Source: Lentisphaeria bacterium | Lineage (GTDB): Bacteria; Verrucomicrobiota; Lentisphaeria; Victivallales; Victivallaceae | Reading direction: 5' to 3' | Length of the DNA stretch: 64,000 bases | Assembly (NCBI GenBank): GCA_017450705.1 | Contig: JAFSTC010000014.1 | Coordinates: 1 to 64,000, forward strand | In this document: piece by piece, positions 1-49,369 of the stretch | How positions within the stretch are numbered: position 1 is the stretch's first letter | Layout: each line of letters opens with the position of its first letter | Made by a program: the position numbers and the translations under genes | Notes under the pieces: model-generated | The model's input: only the letters and a program-made list of their open reading frames with translations | Database searches by the model: none | What the model was told of the DNA's origin: nothing

Positions 1-71
1 CGGGAGCGCAGGACAATCCAAGTGCCGGAGCCATTTCAATTTATTGGAAATGGCGACAAACGCGTGATTCG

Positions 72-101
72 GCGGATCGTTTCGATCCGCGCTTTTTTTT
101 T
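72..101 (+). terminator. Rho-independent terminator in repeat unit 1
   Basis: An 8-bp perfect stem GCGGATCG/CGATCCGC with a TTT loop is followed by GC and a run of nine T. It would end transcripts entering from the left edge. The same structure recurs 171 bp later. Confidence 0.75.
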
Positions 102-242
102 GCAAAAAAAGCAACCATTCCCGGAGGGTGGTTCGACCCCGGAGGGGTGTGTGAGCATCCCGGCCGTCGGCCGGGAGCGCAGGACAATCCAAGTGCCGGA
201 GCCATTTCAATTTATTGGAAATGGCGACAAACGCGTGATTCG

Positions 243-271
243 GCGGATCGTTTCGATCCGCGCTTTTTTTT
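243..271 (+). terminator. Rho-independent terminator in repeat unit 2
   Basis: Second copy of the GCGGATCG-TTT-CGATCCGC hairpin with a T8 tail, exactly 171 bp after the first, so the array works as a tandem double terminator on the + strand. Confidence 0.72.
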
Positions 272-392
272 CGCAAAAAAAGCAACCATTCCCGGAGGGT
301 GGTTCGACCCCGAAGGGGTGTGTGAGCATCCCGGCCGTCGGCCGGGAGCGCAGGACAATCCAAGTGCCGGAGCCGTTTTTTCGTCCGCCCTC

Positions 393-44589: not shown

Positions 44590-47208
44590 TCACCGGATGA
44601 GAATGTTTTTGATCTCGAAGGGCTTGAACTTCAACTCGGGGGAGGGGAGGGCCTTCCCGTCATTTCCCAACCCGTCGGTCTCGAACAGGGTTTTGCCTTC
44701 GGCCAGCGCCCCGGCGAGGGTCGTCGTGAGCGGGAGACCGCGCGTCTCGTAAACGCGGAGGAACAGTCCCTTCTTCAAGTTGCGGACCGAGGAGACCGCC
44801 GCGCCGGGGAGCCTGAGTTGAGACCCCTCCGGCAGGGAGCCCGTCAGCACCTGGACGGGGCGGTTCAGCAGAGCGCCCAGTTCATAAGCCTTGATCATAT
44901 CCATTGGACTATGCGCCCGGAAAGCGAAACGGTAATGATGCAAGCCGTTGTCGTAGGAGCCCGGCTGGGGCGTCAACTGACCGTCGCGGGTGGCGGTCCC
45001 GCTCCGCAGGAGGGCAACGGTGATGACGCCGTTGCTCAACTGGTGTCCGGGCGTTCCGGTGTTGGCGACCGTAAGGCCCATGGAATAATCGGAAAGGTTG
45101 ACCCAGTTCAGCGCGGGCCAGTCCCCCTTGGCTTCCCGGTAATCTCCTGAGGTCTGAAGCTGCTGCAGCGTGGATTCGTACTTTTCGTCCACCTCGAAAT
45201 AGGGCTTCCGGACCAGCGCGGAAAAGGGCGTCTCGTAGGTCCCGGCGGCCTTCAGGGGATCCACCGCTGTGGGGAAGCAAATGGAGACTTTGGTGTTGCA
45301 TCCCGTCCAGTCGAGTTCGAGATCCAGTGTGAAATAGTCCAGTTCGTTGTAAAACCGGTACTCTTTGCGGAAGGCGAGCGCGCCGAACCCCGGCCAATGG
45401 GGCCCGAGATTGCCGGAGGCGGCCGGTCCGGGAAGCACGTTCCCCTCCGTCACGACGCGGCGGAAGACACCTCCCGCTTCGCAGAGCACGACCTTTTCCC
45501 GGAAAAACTCCAGGGGGATCGGCAGCTGCCAGAAATCCTCCGACCACATGGAGCCGGTGTCCCGCTGGACGCGCAGCGCTCCGAAGCCGTCGGCGGAAAA
45601 AACGTTTTTCCCGTTCAGGTTCCGGATCACGGGAGAGGGCCCGAAGAAATCGGCGTGGAAATATTTCGTGTCGAAAACGGGCTCGCAGGGCCTGGCCGCG
45701 GCGGCTTTCCCCGTTTTTTTGAACGTCTTGATCCCGAAGGAAGGCAGATCGACGGTGTAAACGGCCAGATCTCCCGCTTTCTGGGCCGCGACGCCCTCCG
45801 GGACGACCGGCGACGTGACCAGCTGGGGCCCCTCCGCGGTCGAAAAACTGCAGAGAGAATATCCCTTGCCCGGGATCGGATCGGATTTTGCGCCTTGCGC
45901 CGTTTCCAGGTATTTGTCGATCTCCGGAGTGCAGGCGTCGACGTGACAGCCGCATGCGGCGTCGTGGAACTGGGCCGAAAGAAGCGAACGCCATTCTTTG
46001 CGGAACTCGTTTTCTTTGCCGAGGACGGCGTTGAGGTATTCGGCGCGGAACAGAGCCGATTCCGCCTGGCGGATCGCTTGCTTCGTGCCGATCCGCGTCG
46101 TGTAGCAGCCGGTGAAGACCGGATTGAATTCGCCGCGGTAGTCCGGCAGATCGTCCAAGGAAGCGTCGGCGAGATACCGGTGACAGGAGCCCGGGACGAT
46201 CTGCTTGCCCCCCAGCCCGTTCGCCATGGCGAGGATGCTGAAAATGCTCTCCTGAAACGTGCCTTCTTCGGTGGAGTAGGAGAGCAGAACGGTCCCCGGC
46301 AGCTGTTTCGCCGCCAGAATGTTTTTCAGGAGCCGGGTCTCCCCGGTCTGCACCAGAGGGACGTTCAATTCATACCCGAGGTGGGTGATCTCGGCGGTAT
46401 TGCGGAAAACGGTGACGCCTCCGTTGCCGGCTAAAGATTCCCAGCGGAAAAGATCGGCTTGTGCGATTTCCTGGGGCTGATTGGGCGTCCGGCCGGGAGA
46501 GAGGTACCGGATGCCGCACTGCATCAAAATCTGCGGCAGCTGGGCGCACATGCCGAAGGCATCGTTGAAGCGGGCAAGATCGCTGGAGCGGCCGAGAGTT
46601 TCCCGATACCAGGCAAGTCCCTGCTCCAGATTGCGGAAGATCGATTCGCCGCTGACCATATTGAGGTCCGGGATGCTGTAAACCGAGCACAGTTCCAGGC
46701 GGCCTTCCGCCGCAAGTTTCTTTGCCGTTGTCAGGAGCTCCGGATGCTGTTCGAAAAACGCGCGTCCGATCTCCGCCTGCTCCAGCTGGAAGGAAACGCC
46801 GTCATACGCGTCGGCATACCGGAACTCGGTGAGCAGCTGTTCTTCGCGTATCTTTTTGTATTCTGATGTCGGGCGCCGCCAGATCAGATCGGAATGGTGA
46901 CAGAAATAGAGGTAGGCTTTTCCCGGCCCCGCTCCCGTTCCCTGTTGCTGACGATGGGGTTCGGCAATGGCGGAAGCGTGGGGAGAAACGTAGAACCCGG
47001 AGGCGCCGCGGCACTCGACATAGCCGTTGCCCATCAATTCCTTGAGCGCATTTTGAATGACGGAGAGACTGACGTCGAACCGGGCGGACATTTCGCGCAC
47101 GGTCGCCAGGCGCTCCCCCGGAGCGATGACGCCCTCCCGGATCAGTTTCATGATCTCCCGAACGACCTGATCCCGCTTGGGAGGCTTTGCTTTCAGTGAT
47201 TCTTTCAT
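44590..47208 (-). CDS. GntR helix-turn-helix fused to a GH38 alpha-mannosidase-like enzyme
   Basis: This 872-residue protein is one uninterrupted frame. Residues 12-76 form a GntR winged helix (DQVVREIMKLIREGVIAPGE; MSARFDVSLSVIQNALKELM). Residues 97-872 form a GH38-type enzyme with the metal-site opening CHHSDLIW (His105, Asp107), nucleophile-type Asp216 in NDAFG, YSTEEG (311-316) and QFHDAACG (His415, Asp416), followed by the long beta C-terminal domain. Catalytic positions are largely kept, so it may both cleave or bind a mannoside and control transcription. No signal peptide, as expected for a DNA-binding protein. ATG 47208 has GGAG nine bases upstream; a TTG nine bases earlier is possible. 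It has a strong promoter and leads the locus. Confidence 0.88.
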   Translation of the reverse strand: MKESLKAKPPKRDQVVREIMKLIREGVIAPGERLATVREMSARFDVSLSVIQNALKELMGNGYVECRGASGFYVSPHASAIAEPHRQQQGTGAGPGKAYLYFCHHSDLIWRRPTSEYKKIREEQLLTEFRYADAYDGVSFQLEQAEIGRAFFEQHPELLTTAKKLAAEGRLELCSVYSIPDLNMVSGESIFRNLEQGLAWYRETLGRSSDLARFNDAFGMCAQLPQILMQCGIRYLSPGRTPNQPQEIAQADLFRWESLAGNGGVTVFRNTAEITHLGYELNVPLVQTGETRLLKNILAAKQLPGTVLLSYSTEEGTFQESIFSILAMANGLGGKQIVPGSCHRYLADASLDDLPDYRGEFNPVFTGCYTTRIGTKQAIRQAESALFRAEYLNAVLGKENEFRKEWRSLLSAQFHDAACGCHVDACTPEIDKYLETAQGAKSDPIPGKGYSLCSFSTAEGPQLVTSPVVPEGVAAQKAGDLAVYTVDLPSFGIKTFKKTGKAAAARPCEPVFDTKYFHADFFGPSPVIRNLNGKNVFSADGFGALRVQRDTGSMWSEDFWQLPIPLEFFREKVVLCEAGGVFRRVVTEGNVLPGPAASGNLGPHWPGFGALAFRKEYRFYNELDYFTLDLELDWTGCNTKVSICFPTAVDPLKAAGTYETPFSALVRKPYFEVDEKYESTLQQLQTSGDYREAKGDWPALNWVNLSDYSMGLTVANTGTPGHQLSNGVITVALLRSGTATRDGQLTPQPGSYDNGLHHYRFAFRAHSPMDMIKAYELGALLNRPVQVLTGSLPEGSQLRLPGAAVSSVRNLKKGLFLRVYETRGLPLTTTLAGALAEGKTLFETDGLGNDGKALPSPELKFKPFEIKNILIR

Positions 47209-47245
47209 GGGGCGCAACTCCAGTGTTTCTGTGGATCTTGGAGCA

Positions 47246-47274
47246 AATATAGCCCGTGCTCAACGGTTTGTCAA
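47246..47274 (-). promoter_or_regulatory. Strong promoter of the GntR-GH38 locus
   Basis: On the minus strand: TTGACA (47269-47274), a 17-bp spacer and TATATT (47246-47251). Upstream, three 10-bp-spaced A-tracts (TACAAAAAAT, TACGAAAAAA, TACAAAGC, about 47282-47311) would form a bent UP-like element. Confidence 0.85.
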
Positions 47275-47382
47275 GAGCGGCAATACAAAAAATTACGAAA
47301 AAATACAAAGCGTTTCCCGTGTTCCCCCTCCGAACAGGCGAGGGCGGCTAATGACTCCCCCAAATCCCCCGCTTTTCAAAAT

Positions 47383-47535
47383 GCTCTGTTCCCGATAAGG
47401 GTCGGTTGTTCCGGGGGAAGGGGAAAACCTCTTTTCCCCGTGAAAAGAGGTTTTCCCCTTCCCCCGTGCCCCCATCCCTTTTCGAGAAAAGCGATGTGTT
47501 TTTGAACTGCCGCCTACCTGTGTGGGGGACAGAGC
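47383..47535. repeat. Dispersed palindromic element, copy 6 (best preserved)
   Basis: Terminal repeats GCTCTGTTCCC (47383-47393) and GGGGACAGAGC (47525-47535) match at 10 of 11 positions, and the similarity continues outward into GCTTTT-rich flanks. The internal hairpin has perfect 25-bp arms (47412-47436, 47442-47466) around loop CCCGT. No open frame of its own. Confidence 0.88.
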
Positions 47536-47844
47536 CTTTCAAAAAAGCGCTGTATTGGGGCTGATCGGGAAAAACGTGAGAATTAGCAAAAATCTCGAAT
47601 TGCCCCCCGCTGGGGTCCAACGGCAGCGCAAGTTATTCGAAATAAGCTTGCATTCAACGCGTTGCGGCGATATATTCCAGTACACTTATCGAACATTTAT
47701 TATAAAAAAATCGATAGGTTATTCGACCTCGGCGCTCTTCGGGTAGGTGTAGGGCGATTTCAGGCAAGACGGCAGGCGAATAGGTGAAGTTTGTTGAGGG
47801 GCAGCGGGTCAGTTCTTGATTTGACTTGGGGGAAGGGCAAAAAA
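47536..47844. other. Gene-free AT-rich spacer
   Basis: Between the palindromic element and the tRNA-linked array I see no gene, promoter of quality or hairpin. Bases about 47640-47730 are distinctly AT-rich (for example AACATTTATTATAAAAAAATCG) compared with the surrounding GC-rich DNA, which hints at foreign or decayed sequence. Confidence 0.5.
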
Positions 47845-48307
47845 ATGGCAGTCCCGCAAGGATTCGACGAGGAGGGGCGAAGCCGCGACGAAGAGCCGCC
47901 GGTGGAGCCGGCGGCAACCTCCGCCCCGAAGACGTGCGGGACGGGAGATTTTTCCTCCCCGTCAGGGGGGAAGCCGGAGGCGGGGAAAAAGGGAAACGCA
48001 GTTTTCGTTTTGCCTTGCCGACGGCGGAGGAGCGCGTCAGAGGCGCGCGGGGGAAATCGATTTTTTTGCAAAAAAATGGCAGTCCCGTAAGGATTCGACG
48101 AGGAGCGCCGAAGGCGCGACGAAGAGCCGCCGGGCGTGCCCGGCGGCAACCTCCGCCCCGAAGACTTGCGAGGGAAGAGATTTTTCCTCCCCGTTCCGGG
48201 GAGAAGCGGGAGGCGGGTCAAAAGGGAAACGCAGTTTTCATTTTGACTTGCCGACAGCGAGAGAGCGCGTCGCAGACGCGCGTGAAAAATCGTTTTATTG
48301 CAAAAAA
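47845..48307 (-). repeat. Tandem array of two 231/232-bp units carrying tRNA-Gln 3' ends
   Basis: Units start at 47845 and 48076, and the third start, 48308, is the real tRNA. Each unit opens with ATGGCAGTCCCG(C/T)AAGGATTCGA, the reverse complement of the tRNA-Gln 3' acceptor and T-arm including CCA. About 205 bp of GC-rich, hairpin-forming sequence follows and ends in TTTTTTTGCAAAAAAA or a variant. The array lies immediately 3' of the tRNA in its direction of transcription. Confidence 0.88.
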
Positions 48308-48308
48308 A

Positions 48309-48382
48309 TGGCAGTCCCGCAAGGATTCGAACCTCGACAAAGTGAACCAGAATCACTTGTGCTACCGTTACACCACGGGACT
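48309..48382 (-). tRNA. tRNA-Gln (anticodon CTG), CCA encoded
   Basis: The minus-strand transcript folds as a full cloverleaf: acceptor AGTCCCG/CGGGACT with discriminator G and encoded CCA, D-loop containing GGTAGC, anticodon stem AGTGA/TCACT with loop TTCTGGT (anticodon CTG) and T-arm with GGTTCGAATCC. A TATATT -10 lies upstream (about 48395-48400 read on the minus strand). A T8 run follows the 3' end and could terminate the transcript. Confidence 0.94.
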
Positions 48383-48457
48383 GCGAACACCCTATAATAT
48401 ACCCGTCTTCCGCGGAAAAGCAAGCAGGGAAACGAAAAAAGTCGGAAAAACGGTGCG

Positions 48458-49369
48458 TCAGCCCCGGGGATGGAACTGACGATGGACCGAAATGAGCTTG
48501 CTGCGGTCCACGTGCGTGTAGATCTCCGTCGTGGCGATGTTGGCGTGGCCGAGCATCTCCTGGATGGCGCGCAGATCCGCCCCGTGGGCCAGCAGATGGC
48601 TGGCGAAGGAGTGCCGCAGGGTGTGGGGATGGATGTTTTTCGTGATCCCCGCCCGGGAGGCGGCCAGCTTCACCACCTGCCAGATGCGCTCGCGGTCCAG
48701 CGCGCGGCCGCGGTAGGAGAGGAAAAGCGCCGGATTGGCCGGATTCCGCGCGGAAAAGACCGGGCGGGAGAGCTCCAGGTAGCGCCGGAGCTGCCGCAGG
48801 GCGGGTTTCCCCACCGGCACGAGGCGCGTTTTGCTCCCCTTTCCCGTGACCCGGATCATCTCCTCCTCGAGGTCGATGGCCTTGAAGGTGAGATTCGCCG
48901 TTTCCGACACCCGGAGCCCCGAGGAGTACAGAAGTTCGAGGATCGTCCGGTTGCGCACCTCCAGGGGATCGTCGGACTCCTCGGGAAAGGCTTTCAGGAT
49001 GTCGATGACCTCCTGCTCGGAGAGGAAGTCGGGGAGGATCTTCCACAGCCGGGGAGACTCCATCACCTCGGTGACATCGTCCTTGATGCGCTCTTCGTTC
49101 TTGAGGTACCGGAAGAGCATTTTCAGGGCGATGAGATGGTGGGCCGCGGTCGTGCTCTCCAATCCCCTGTCGCGCAGATCGTCCAGGTAGTCGAGGAGCA
49201 TGTCCCGGGTCACCTGGCTCCAGGACGTGACCTTCTGGACGTCCCGGAGATAAGCCGCGGCGGACTCCAGATCGAAAACGTAGGCGGAACGGGTGTTGCC
49301 GGCCAGACCGCGCTCGAGGATGATGAATTCGCCGAACTCGGCGATCTCCCGGTCCAGAGGCAGGTCCAT
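48458..49369 (-). CDS. xerD: Tyrosine recombinase XerD/XerC
   Basis: This 303-residue protein has the N-terminal SAM-like DNA-binding domain (1-105) and the catalytic domain with all expected residues: Arg153 (SSGLRVSE), Lys177 (TGKGSKTR), His249 and Arg252 (HTLRHSF), His275 (LGHANIATT) and nucleophile Tyr284 (IYTHVD). It resolves chromosome dimers at dif with FtsK. The length and domain layout are of the housekeeping type rather than of a phage integrase, although it is next to a tRNA with repeated 3' ends. Its ATG overlaps the stop of the LOG-family gene (TAATG), so it is translated from the lpxB-LOG-xerD operon. XerC versus XerD cannot be decided without a tree. Confidence 0.92.
   Translation of the reverse strand: MDLPLDREIAEFGEFIILERGLAGNTRSAYVFDLESAAAYLRDVQKVTSWSQVTRDMLLDYLDDLRDRGLESTTAAHHLIALKMLFRYLKNEERIKDDVTEVMESPRLWKILPDFLSEQEVIDILKAFPEESDDPLEVRNRTILELLYSSGLRVSETANLTFKAIDLEEEMIRVTGKGSKTRLVPVGKPALRQLRRYLELSRPVFSARNPANPALFLSYRGRALDRERIWQVVKLAASRAGITKNIHPHTLRHSFASHLLAHGADLRAIQEMLGHANIATTEIYTHVDRSKLISVHRQFHPRG

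Follow-up and report, generated by a model that had tools for sequence, protein, structure and literature searches.

The 64,000-nt stretch analyzed here, referred to below as the window, comprises positions 1 to 64,000 of contig JAFSTC010000014.1 from a gut-dwelling Lentisphaeria bacterium (assembly GCA_017450705.1; G000:C94:1-64000, where G000 is the source genome and the other G handles denote genomes compared with it). ARAGORN recognized just one tRNA gene in the window, tRNA-Gln(CTG) on the minus strand, which is followed by two tandem units that each end in a copy of the tRNA 3' end (Table 1). The motif ATGGCAGTCCCG(C/T)AAGGATTCGA starts at plus-strand positions 47845, 48076 and 48308, and Tandem Repeats Finder (TRF) reports the array with a score of 751 and a period of 232, confirming the 231/232-bp tandem repeats with the tRNA-Gln 3' end described in the initial annotation. 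Along the tRNA strand, each unit consists of a T-run, a palindromic body, xxGGTT, a hairpin insert of 48-49 nt and the tail TCGAATCC...CCA. The unit also carries the inner 5' T-stem strand of this tRNA, which gives its end the layout of a T-arm with the loop split by ~50 bp of hairpins. Units 1 and 2 are identical at 199 of 232 positions (86%) and, outside the 22-nt tail, at 178 of 210 (85%), so their likeness is not restricted to the 20-bp tRNA part, a restriction that the initial annotation had named as the outcome that would speak against it.

Table 1. Features of the two tRNA-associated arrays of the window
Feature	Position	Strand	Source or remark
tRNA-Gln(CTG) gene, CCA encoded	48309..48382	-	ARAGORN; Rfam tRNA, 59.5 bits
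Copied tail, last 22 nt of tRNA-Gln	48309-48330	-	part of gene 48309..48382
Unit 1, 232 bp, tRNA-proximal: T-run, palindromic body, split T-arm, tail copy	48077..48308	-	
Unit 1 hairpin insert, between GGTT (48148-48151) and TCGAATCC of the tail copy	48099..48147	-	sequence reading and pattern match 48095-48151
Unit 1 tail copy, T55 to A76, 1 mismatch in 22 nt	48077..48098	-	
Unit 2, 231 bp, tRNA-distal, layout as unit 1	47846..48076	-	
Unit 2 hairpin insert, between GGTT (47916-47919) and the tail copy	47868..47915	-	sequence reading and pattern match 47864-47919
Unit 2 tail copy, 0 mismatches in 22 nt	47846..47867	-	
Flank past the array, homologous to DNA right behind the unit-free tRNA-Gln of G025	47600..47845	-	
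Second array, tRNA-Asn tail copies at 12-33, 183-204 and 354-375 (3, 3 and 4 mismatches)	1..378	+	

The collection from the whole genus comprised 102 distinct units; units with N, shorter than 60 bp or longer than 420 bp were skipped, and loci L083-L108 were excluded as duplicates of genomes already counted. Because the automatic rules yield some false units, they were recounted under a strict rule (a 3-bp T-stem and an insert of 25-110 nt), which 92 units passed and 10 failed. The strict set covers 20 genomes, 15 isoacceptors and 50 arrays, with a full tail in 58 units, while the Asn arrays and a Pro-CGG variant lie outside this count. Throughout these genomes and isoacceptors the units nearly always bear the tail of the local tRNA. 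The copied block has a sharp start at T55 and extends through CCA into the T-run: over 64 full-tail unit ends, identity to the tRNA is 3% at T54, 98% at T55 and 91-100% from there through CCA, followed by 79-94% in the next seven bases (the T-run) and 40-62% farther out. Both ends of these elements carry a block of identity that begins within the tRNA and extends to its 3' end. A T-run follows the CCA of the tRNA in most arrays. The 5' T-stem strand carried in the unit also matches the local tRNA, at 87% for base 51 (29% shuffled) and 61% for base 50 (30% shuffled) among the 102 units.

Filled and empty forms of the same sites were found in related genomes. In G000, the flank past the last Gln unit aligns with the DNA directly behind the unit-free tRNA-Gln of G025 (38 bp, 95%), and G001 with four units and G018 with none form a second such pair (47 bp, 91%), each pair supplying an empty attB in a relative. 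Since the post-array sequence adjoins the tRNA directly in unit-free relatives, the units are insertions; on this empty-site reading, the tail copy of unit 2 would be the displaced original end of tRNA-Gln. Copy number varies among relatives, a comparison that the initial annotation had recommended: tail copies lie downstream in eight of the 20 Gln loci compared and are lacking in twelve, one of which has only 48 bp of flank. The G025 flank, together with local-tail units behind 15 isoacceptors, supports the earlier proposal of stacked insertions that always rebuild the tRNA. At three other loci the flank past the unit corresponds to the left end of an integrase-bearing element of G030, namely in G008 (Glu-TTC, 89% over 500), G003 (Glu-CTC, 87% over 46) and G012 (Ser-TGA, 94% over 165), which places the unit on the tRNA side of the element. 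The G030 elements themselves adjoin tRNA-Glu(CTC) or tRNA-Ser(TGA) directly.

The relatedness of the bodies was analyzed by the nearest body outside the same array (n=80). It belonged to the same isoacceptor of another genome in 40 cases, to another tRNA of another genome in 29 and to another tRNA of the same genome in 11, these classes making up 12%, 82% and 6% of the available pairs, respectively. This grouping agrees with lineages that are specific to one tRNA and occasionally retargeted, and not with free transposition. Several of the cross-tRNA pairs join Glu-TTC with Glu-CTC, whose tails are nearly identical; others, for instance G001 Gly and G021 Gln (0.846), are real switches. The suggestion of a repeat that transposes into tRNA 3' ends is supported as regards insertion behind many tRNAs, but not as free transposition, since the bodies group mainly by tRNA. 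At tRNA-Leu(TAA) of G021 (L149) and at L105, the tail of the farthest Leu-TAA unit resembles the Leu-CAA tail, as if ends had been swapped between two tRNA loci.

The core pattern, searched in 84,980 species genomes, occurred in 26 DNA stretches, 24 from Lentisphaerae or Lentisphaeria assemblies and two from Rhizobium, where no upstream tRNA was found within the stretch. With a looser pattern, matches were obtained in 31 genomes among 60 relatives. In our own reading of the strings, the unit-like ones are confined to the genus and the scattered single matches outside it look like coding sequence. Viral contigs gave zero matches to the unit pattern.

No convincing gene was found within the Gln units, the listed open reading frames overlapping on both strands and looking mechanical, and no integrase; the nearest recombinase gene, XerD-like (48476-49369), lies on the opposite side of the tRNA and is taken as an ordinary neighbour. 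The two recombinases of ~300 aa tested in G000 are XerD-like and XerC-like. Y1 transposases (PF01797) and RVT_1 reverse transcriptases are absent from both G000 and G021, which carry units, and a derivation from RAYT/Y1 or IS200/IS605 as well as a reverse transcriptase as mover were accordingly rejected. An integron was rejected too, with no IntI among the five proteins tested, a subset of the recombinases of the genome, all of which scored far below integron cut-offs. A tyrosine recombinase family of ~450 aa is encoded about 101-112 bp behind tRNA-Glu, Leu, Ser, Tyr and Ala genes of the genus, farther behind Arg-ACG and one Ser-GCT and, in our own reading, behind tmRNA ends in two genomes. 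In G008, a gene of this family stands directly behind a unit. Within G000, an integrase element behind tRNA-Leu(CAA) (L213, 1107-10034) resembles a phage satellite and, as we read its translations, has excisionase-like and primase/helicase-like reading frames.

We interpret the units as site-specific, gene-free, palindrome-rich insertion units that would rebuild the tRNA 3' end. A unit would enter the chromosome at the T loop of the tRNA gene and bring or regenerate the 3' end, leaving the tRNA intact and the displaced tail as a mark of the far end. The insertion may proceed by site-specific recombination of an att-like core formed by two T-stem half-sites, presumably through a tyrosine recombinase acting in trans, and stacking would result from repeated insertion and unequal crossing-over. 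The conserved hairpins would act as DNA, either as inverted repeats or as extruded hairpins, and not as an RNA product. A probability of roughly 0.55 is assigned to this interpretation as a whole.

Several observations weigh against it. T-stem base 49 does not match the local tRNA (24% versus 30% shuffled in the 102 units), tails have more than six mismatches in 28 of the 102 units, and the T loop at the far junction is split by the hairpin insert, a feature not expected of an ordinary 7-bp overlap. Of the five flank matches, three are shorter than 50 bp and lie in non-coding flank, and the G008 match crosses isoacceptors. Neither an excised circle nor movement of a unit was observed. Of 30 genomes, whose assemblies are incomplete, only 12 yielded the ~450-aa integrase family; units occur in genomes lacking an integrase match, such as G011, G017, G029, G032 and G033; and no displaced tail was found at 11 integrase loci over about 8-40 kb or to the contig end. 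We therefore infer, rather than observe, the link between this family and the units.

An alternative reading takes the unit for a structured RNA that is transcribed together with the tRNA and excised by tRNA-processing enzymes, as proposed for RtT of E. coli, with the tail copy as its processed 3' end. That the units lie behind the tRNA and share its orientation agrees with this, as does the annotation of the E. coli counterpart as the small RNA rttR, although the E. coli unit folds no better than shuffles (z -0.9). The two window units do fold better than shuffles (z -3.7 and -3.9), and many units appear, in our own reading of separate single folds, to have a three-way junction in common despite their sequence differences, with a long P2 bearing AAATAAATTT at its tip and a P3. 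RNAalifold gave 6 pairs only on a MAFFT alignment of 19 units because the bodies align poorly, and changes at paired positions were counted in 29 disjoint pairs of nearest units. Both-sided changes led to another Watson-Crick pair in 75 cases and to a non-pair in 16, a covariation that also favours a structured RNA, but single changes gave G·U and A·C equally often (44 each). In tRNAs of the same genomes the corresponding numbers were 189 and 52, in a rough control of 344 ordered pairs sharing sequences and without a helix-length filter; wider unit comparisons yielded 60 versus 64 and 685 versus 611, the latter a slight G·U excess. Because the stems covary without the G·U preference seen in tRNAs, DNA-level hairpins are favoured, and our conclusion is that the stems have been maintained, though not in the form of RNA from the tRNA strand. 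Alternatively, palindromes may be perfected by mutation. The structured RNA is further opposed by the T-run behind the tRNA CCA and by the lack of any Rfam family matching the units, both in the window at 47000-49000 (E up to 1) and at 10 loci (E up to 0.5), and we regard it as distinctly unlikely. A weak Acido-Lenti-1 score in the window (19.3 against a cut-off of 37) did not recur in the 10 other loci and was dropped.

The arrays could also be old tandem duplications that lengthen and shorten through slippage and homologous recombination; they would be passed on together with the locus and be immobile today, if they were ever mobile at all. The often near-identical units within arrays (L014, L188, L208) and the half of nearest bodies found at the same tRNA of another genome are expected from such a history, as are the 1 to 9 places per repeat-bearing E. 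coli genome, with a median of 2. We nevertheless consider it unlikely, as filled and empty tRNAs share homologous flanks, one body type stands behind different tRNAs with different tails (the G001 Gly and G021 Gln bodies above), and duplication alone leaves unexplained why the hairpin insert splits the T loop at one and the same point across 15 isoacceptors. A transposition-like target duplication from T55 to the T-run, about 25-30 bp per insertion, would let each tRNA supply its own tail and account for the almost invariable local tail on bodies related across tRNAs. Yet the bodies prefer the same isoacceptor across species, T-stem bases 50-51 of the same tRNA are also in the unit, outside the block that would be duplicated, and the enzymes sought in G000 and G021 (Y1/RAYT transposases, RVT_1 reverse transcriptases) are missing, which makes this explanation very improbable.

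A second array, not included in the initial annotation, lies at the start of the window and is composed of 171-bp units (TRF period 171) whose T loop is split by an insert after GGTTCGA rather than after GGTT. The tRNA-Asn gene is located at the end of contig C89, and the last 60 bases of C89 (tRNA strand) recur from window position 41, so the assembly broke within the Asn array. Several of the tRNAs are within about 300 bp of a contig end, and the units may explain short-read assembly breaks beside tRNA genes in these bacteria. Split-T-arm units follow three of the 39 tRNAs found in G000 (Gln, Leu-TAG and Pro-TGG) and, by the same rule, 6 of 42 in G030 and 6 of 42 in G021. The initial annotation had advised a search behind other tRNAs of the genome, and similar arrays were indeed present at Leu-TAG, Pro-TGG and Asn. 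Pro-CGG of G000 has a variant, a near-complete tRNA copy with an interruption, while tandem tRNA-Gly genes are ordinary gene copies and not units. At L061 1300-1400 (G000:C76), a tRNA-Pro(GGG)-like gene that is truncated and scores 25.9 bits, short of the cut-off, is followed by a decayed unit.

Other repeats were noted at or near these loci. Similar long GC-rich palindromes (CGGGGGAAGGGGAAAACC... with its complement) at 47412-47466 and about 555-615 of the window represent another repeat family of G000. A second repeat family behind many tRNA tails (L029 after 1283 on the minus strand, L035, L068, L080, L172) has an inverted CCA and T-run, as in CCATTTTTTGCCCACAAAAAATGG, followed by GAAGC-type hairpins. 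Small hairpins of the type TCCTCCATAGCTTCAGCGACGGAGGA are nested within units and tails at L214, L158 and L100.

Among the titles and opening lines of abstracts listed by searches of open-access literature we found no description of such units, nor of a design common to them and E. coli tyrT. Islands and satellites integrated at tRNAs are described as restoring the tRNA and leaving a displaced tRNA fragment at the far end (PMC4383910). The units resemble these islands and phage satellites with tyrosine integrases in both respects; however, they are about 200 bp long, gene-free and stacked as near copies, and in their displaced end a hairpin insert interrupts the T loop. Integron attC cassettes likewise form arrays joined at half-sites that could meet by hairpin folding. 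In contrast to integrons, no integron integrase was seen among the proteins tested, and the units are gene-free and each match one tRNA.

The closest likeness is to E. coli, where tandem units of 175-178 bp, annotated rttR and tpr, lie behind tyrT and tyrV. Each of them ends, like the units described here, in the tRNA 3' end (a tRNA-Tyr tail with 3 mismatches in 22). In our own reading these units have the same split T-arm, with AAGGTTCG (the 5' T-arm strand of tRNA-Tyr), a hairpin insert, AATCC and the tail, the split being of the after-TTCGA form as in the Asn array of the window. RtT RNA (RF00391) matches four E. coli units at 132.9-137.5 bits, and RF00391-type repeats were matched in 4680 of 5426 E. 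coli genomes at 1 to 9 places each, with no match in the other 746. On the other hand, RtT is seen at one tRNA type whereas our units stand behind 15 isoacceptors, RF00391 has no match in the window at 47000-49000 or at the 10 loci, and the predicted fold of the E. coli unit has no clear three-way junction in its body. We know of no accepted explanation for the origin of the E. coli tyrT repeats. A genus with this design behind 15 isoacceptors, with both filled and empty sites and a countable structure, offers material for testing mobile DNA against RNA genes and plain duplications. As a highly tentative and quite improbable extension, split-T-arm units may represent a general class of mobile cassettes that carry no gene and would recombine at the tRNA T-arm hairpin, folded as single-stranded DNA like attC, with the T-arms of many tRNAs as targets; the E. 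coli tyrT/RtT repeats would then be a relic of this class, an array for DNA recombination and not in the first place an RNA gene.
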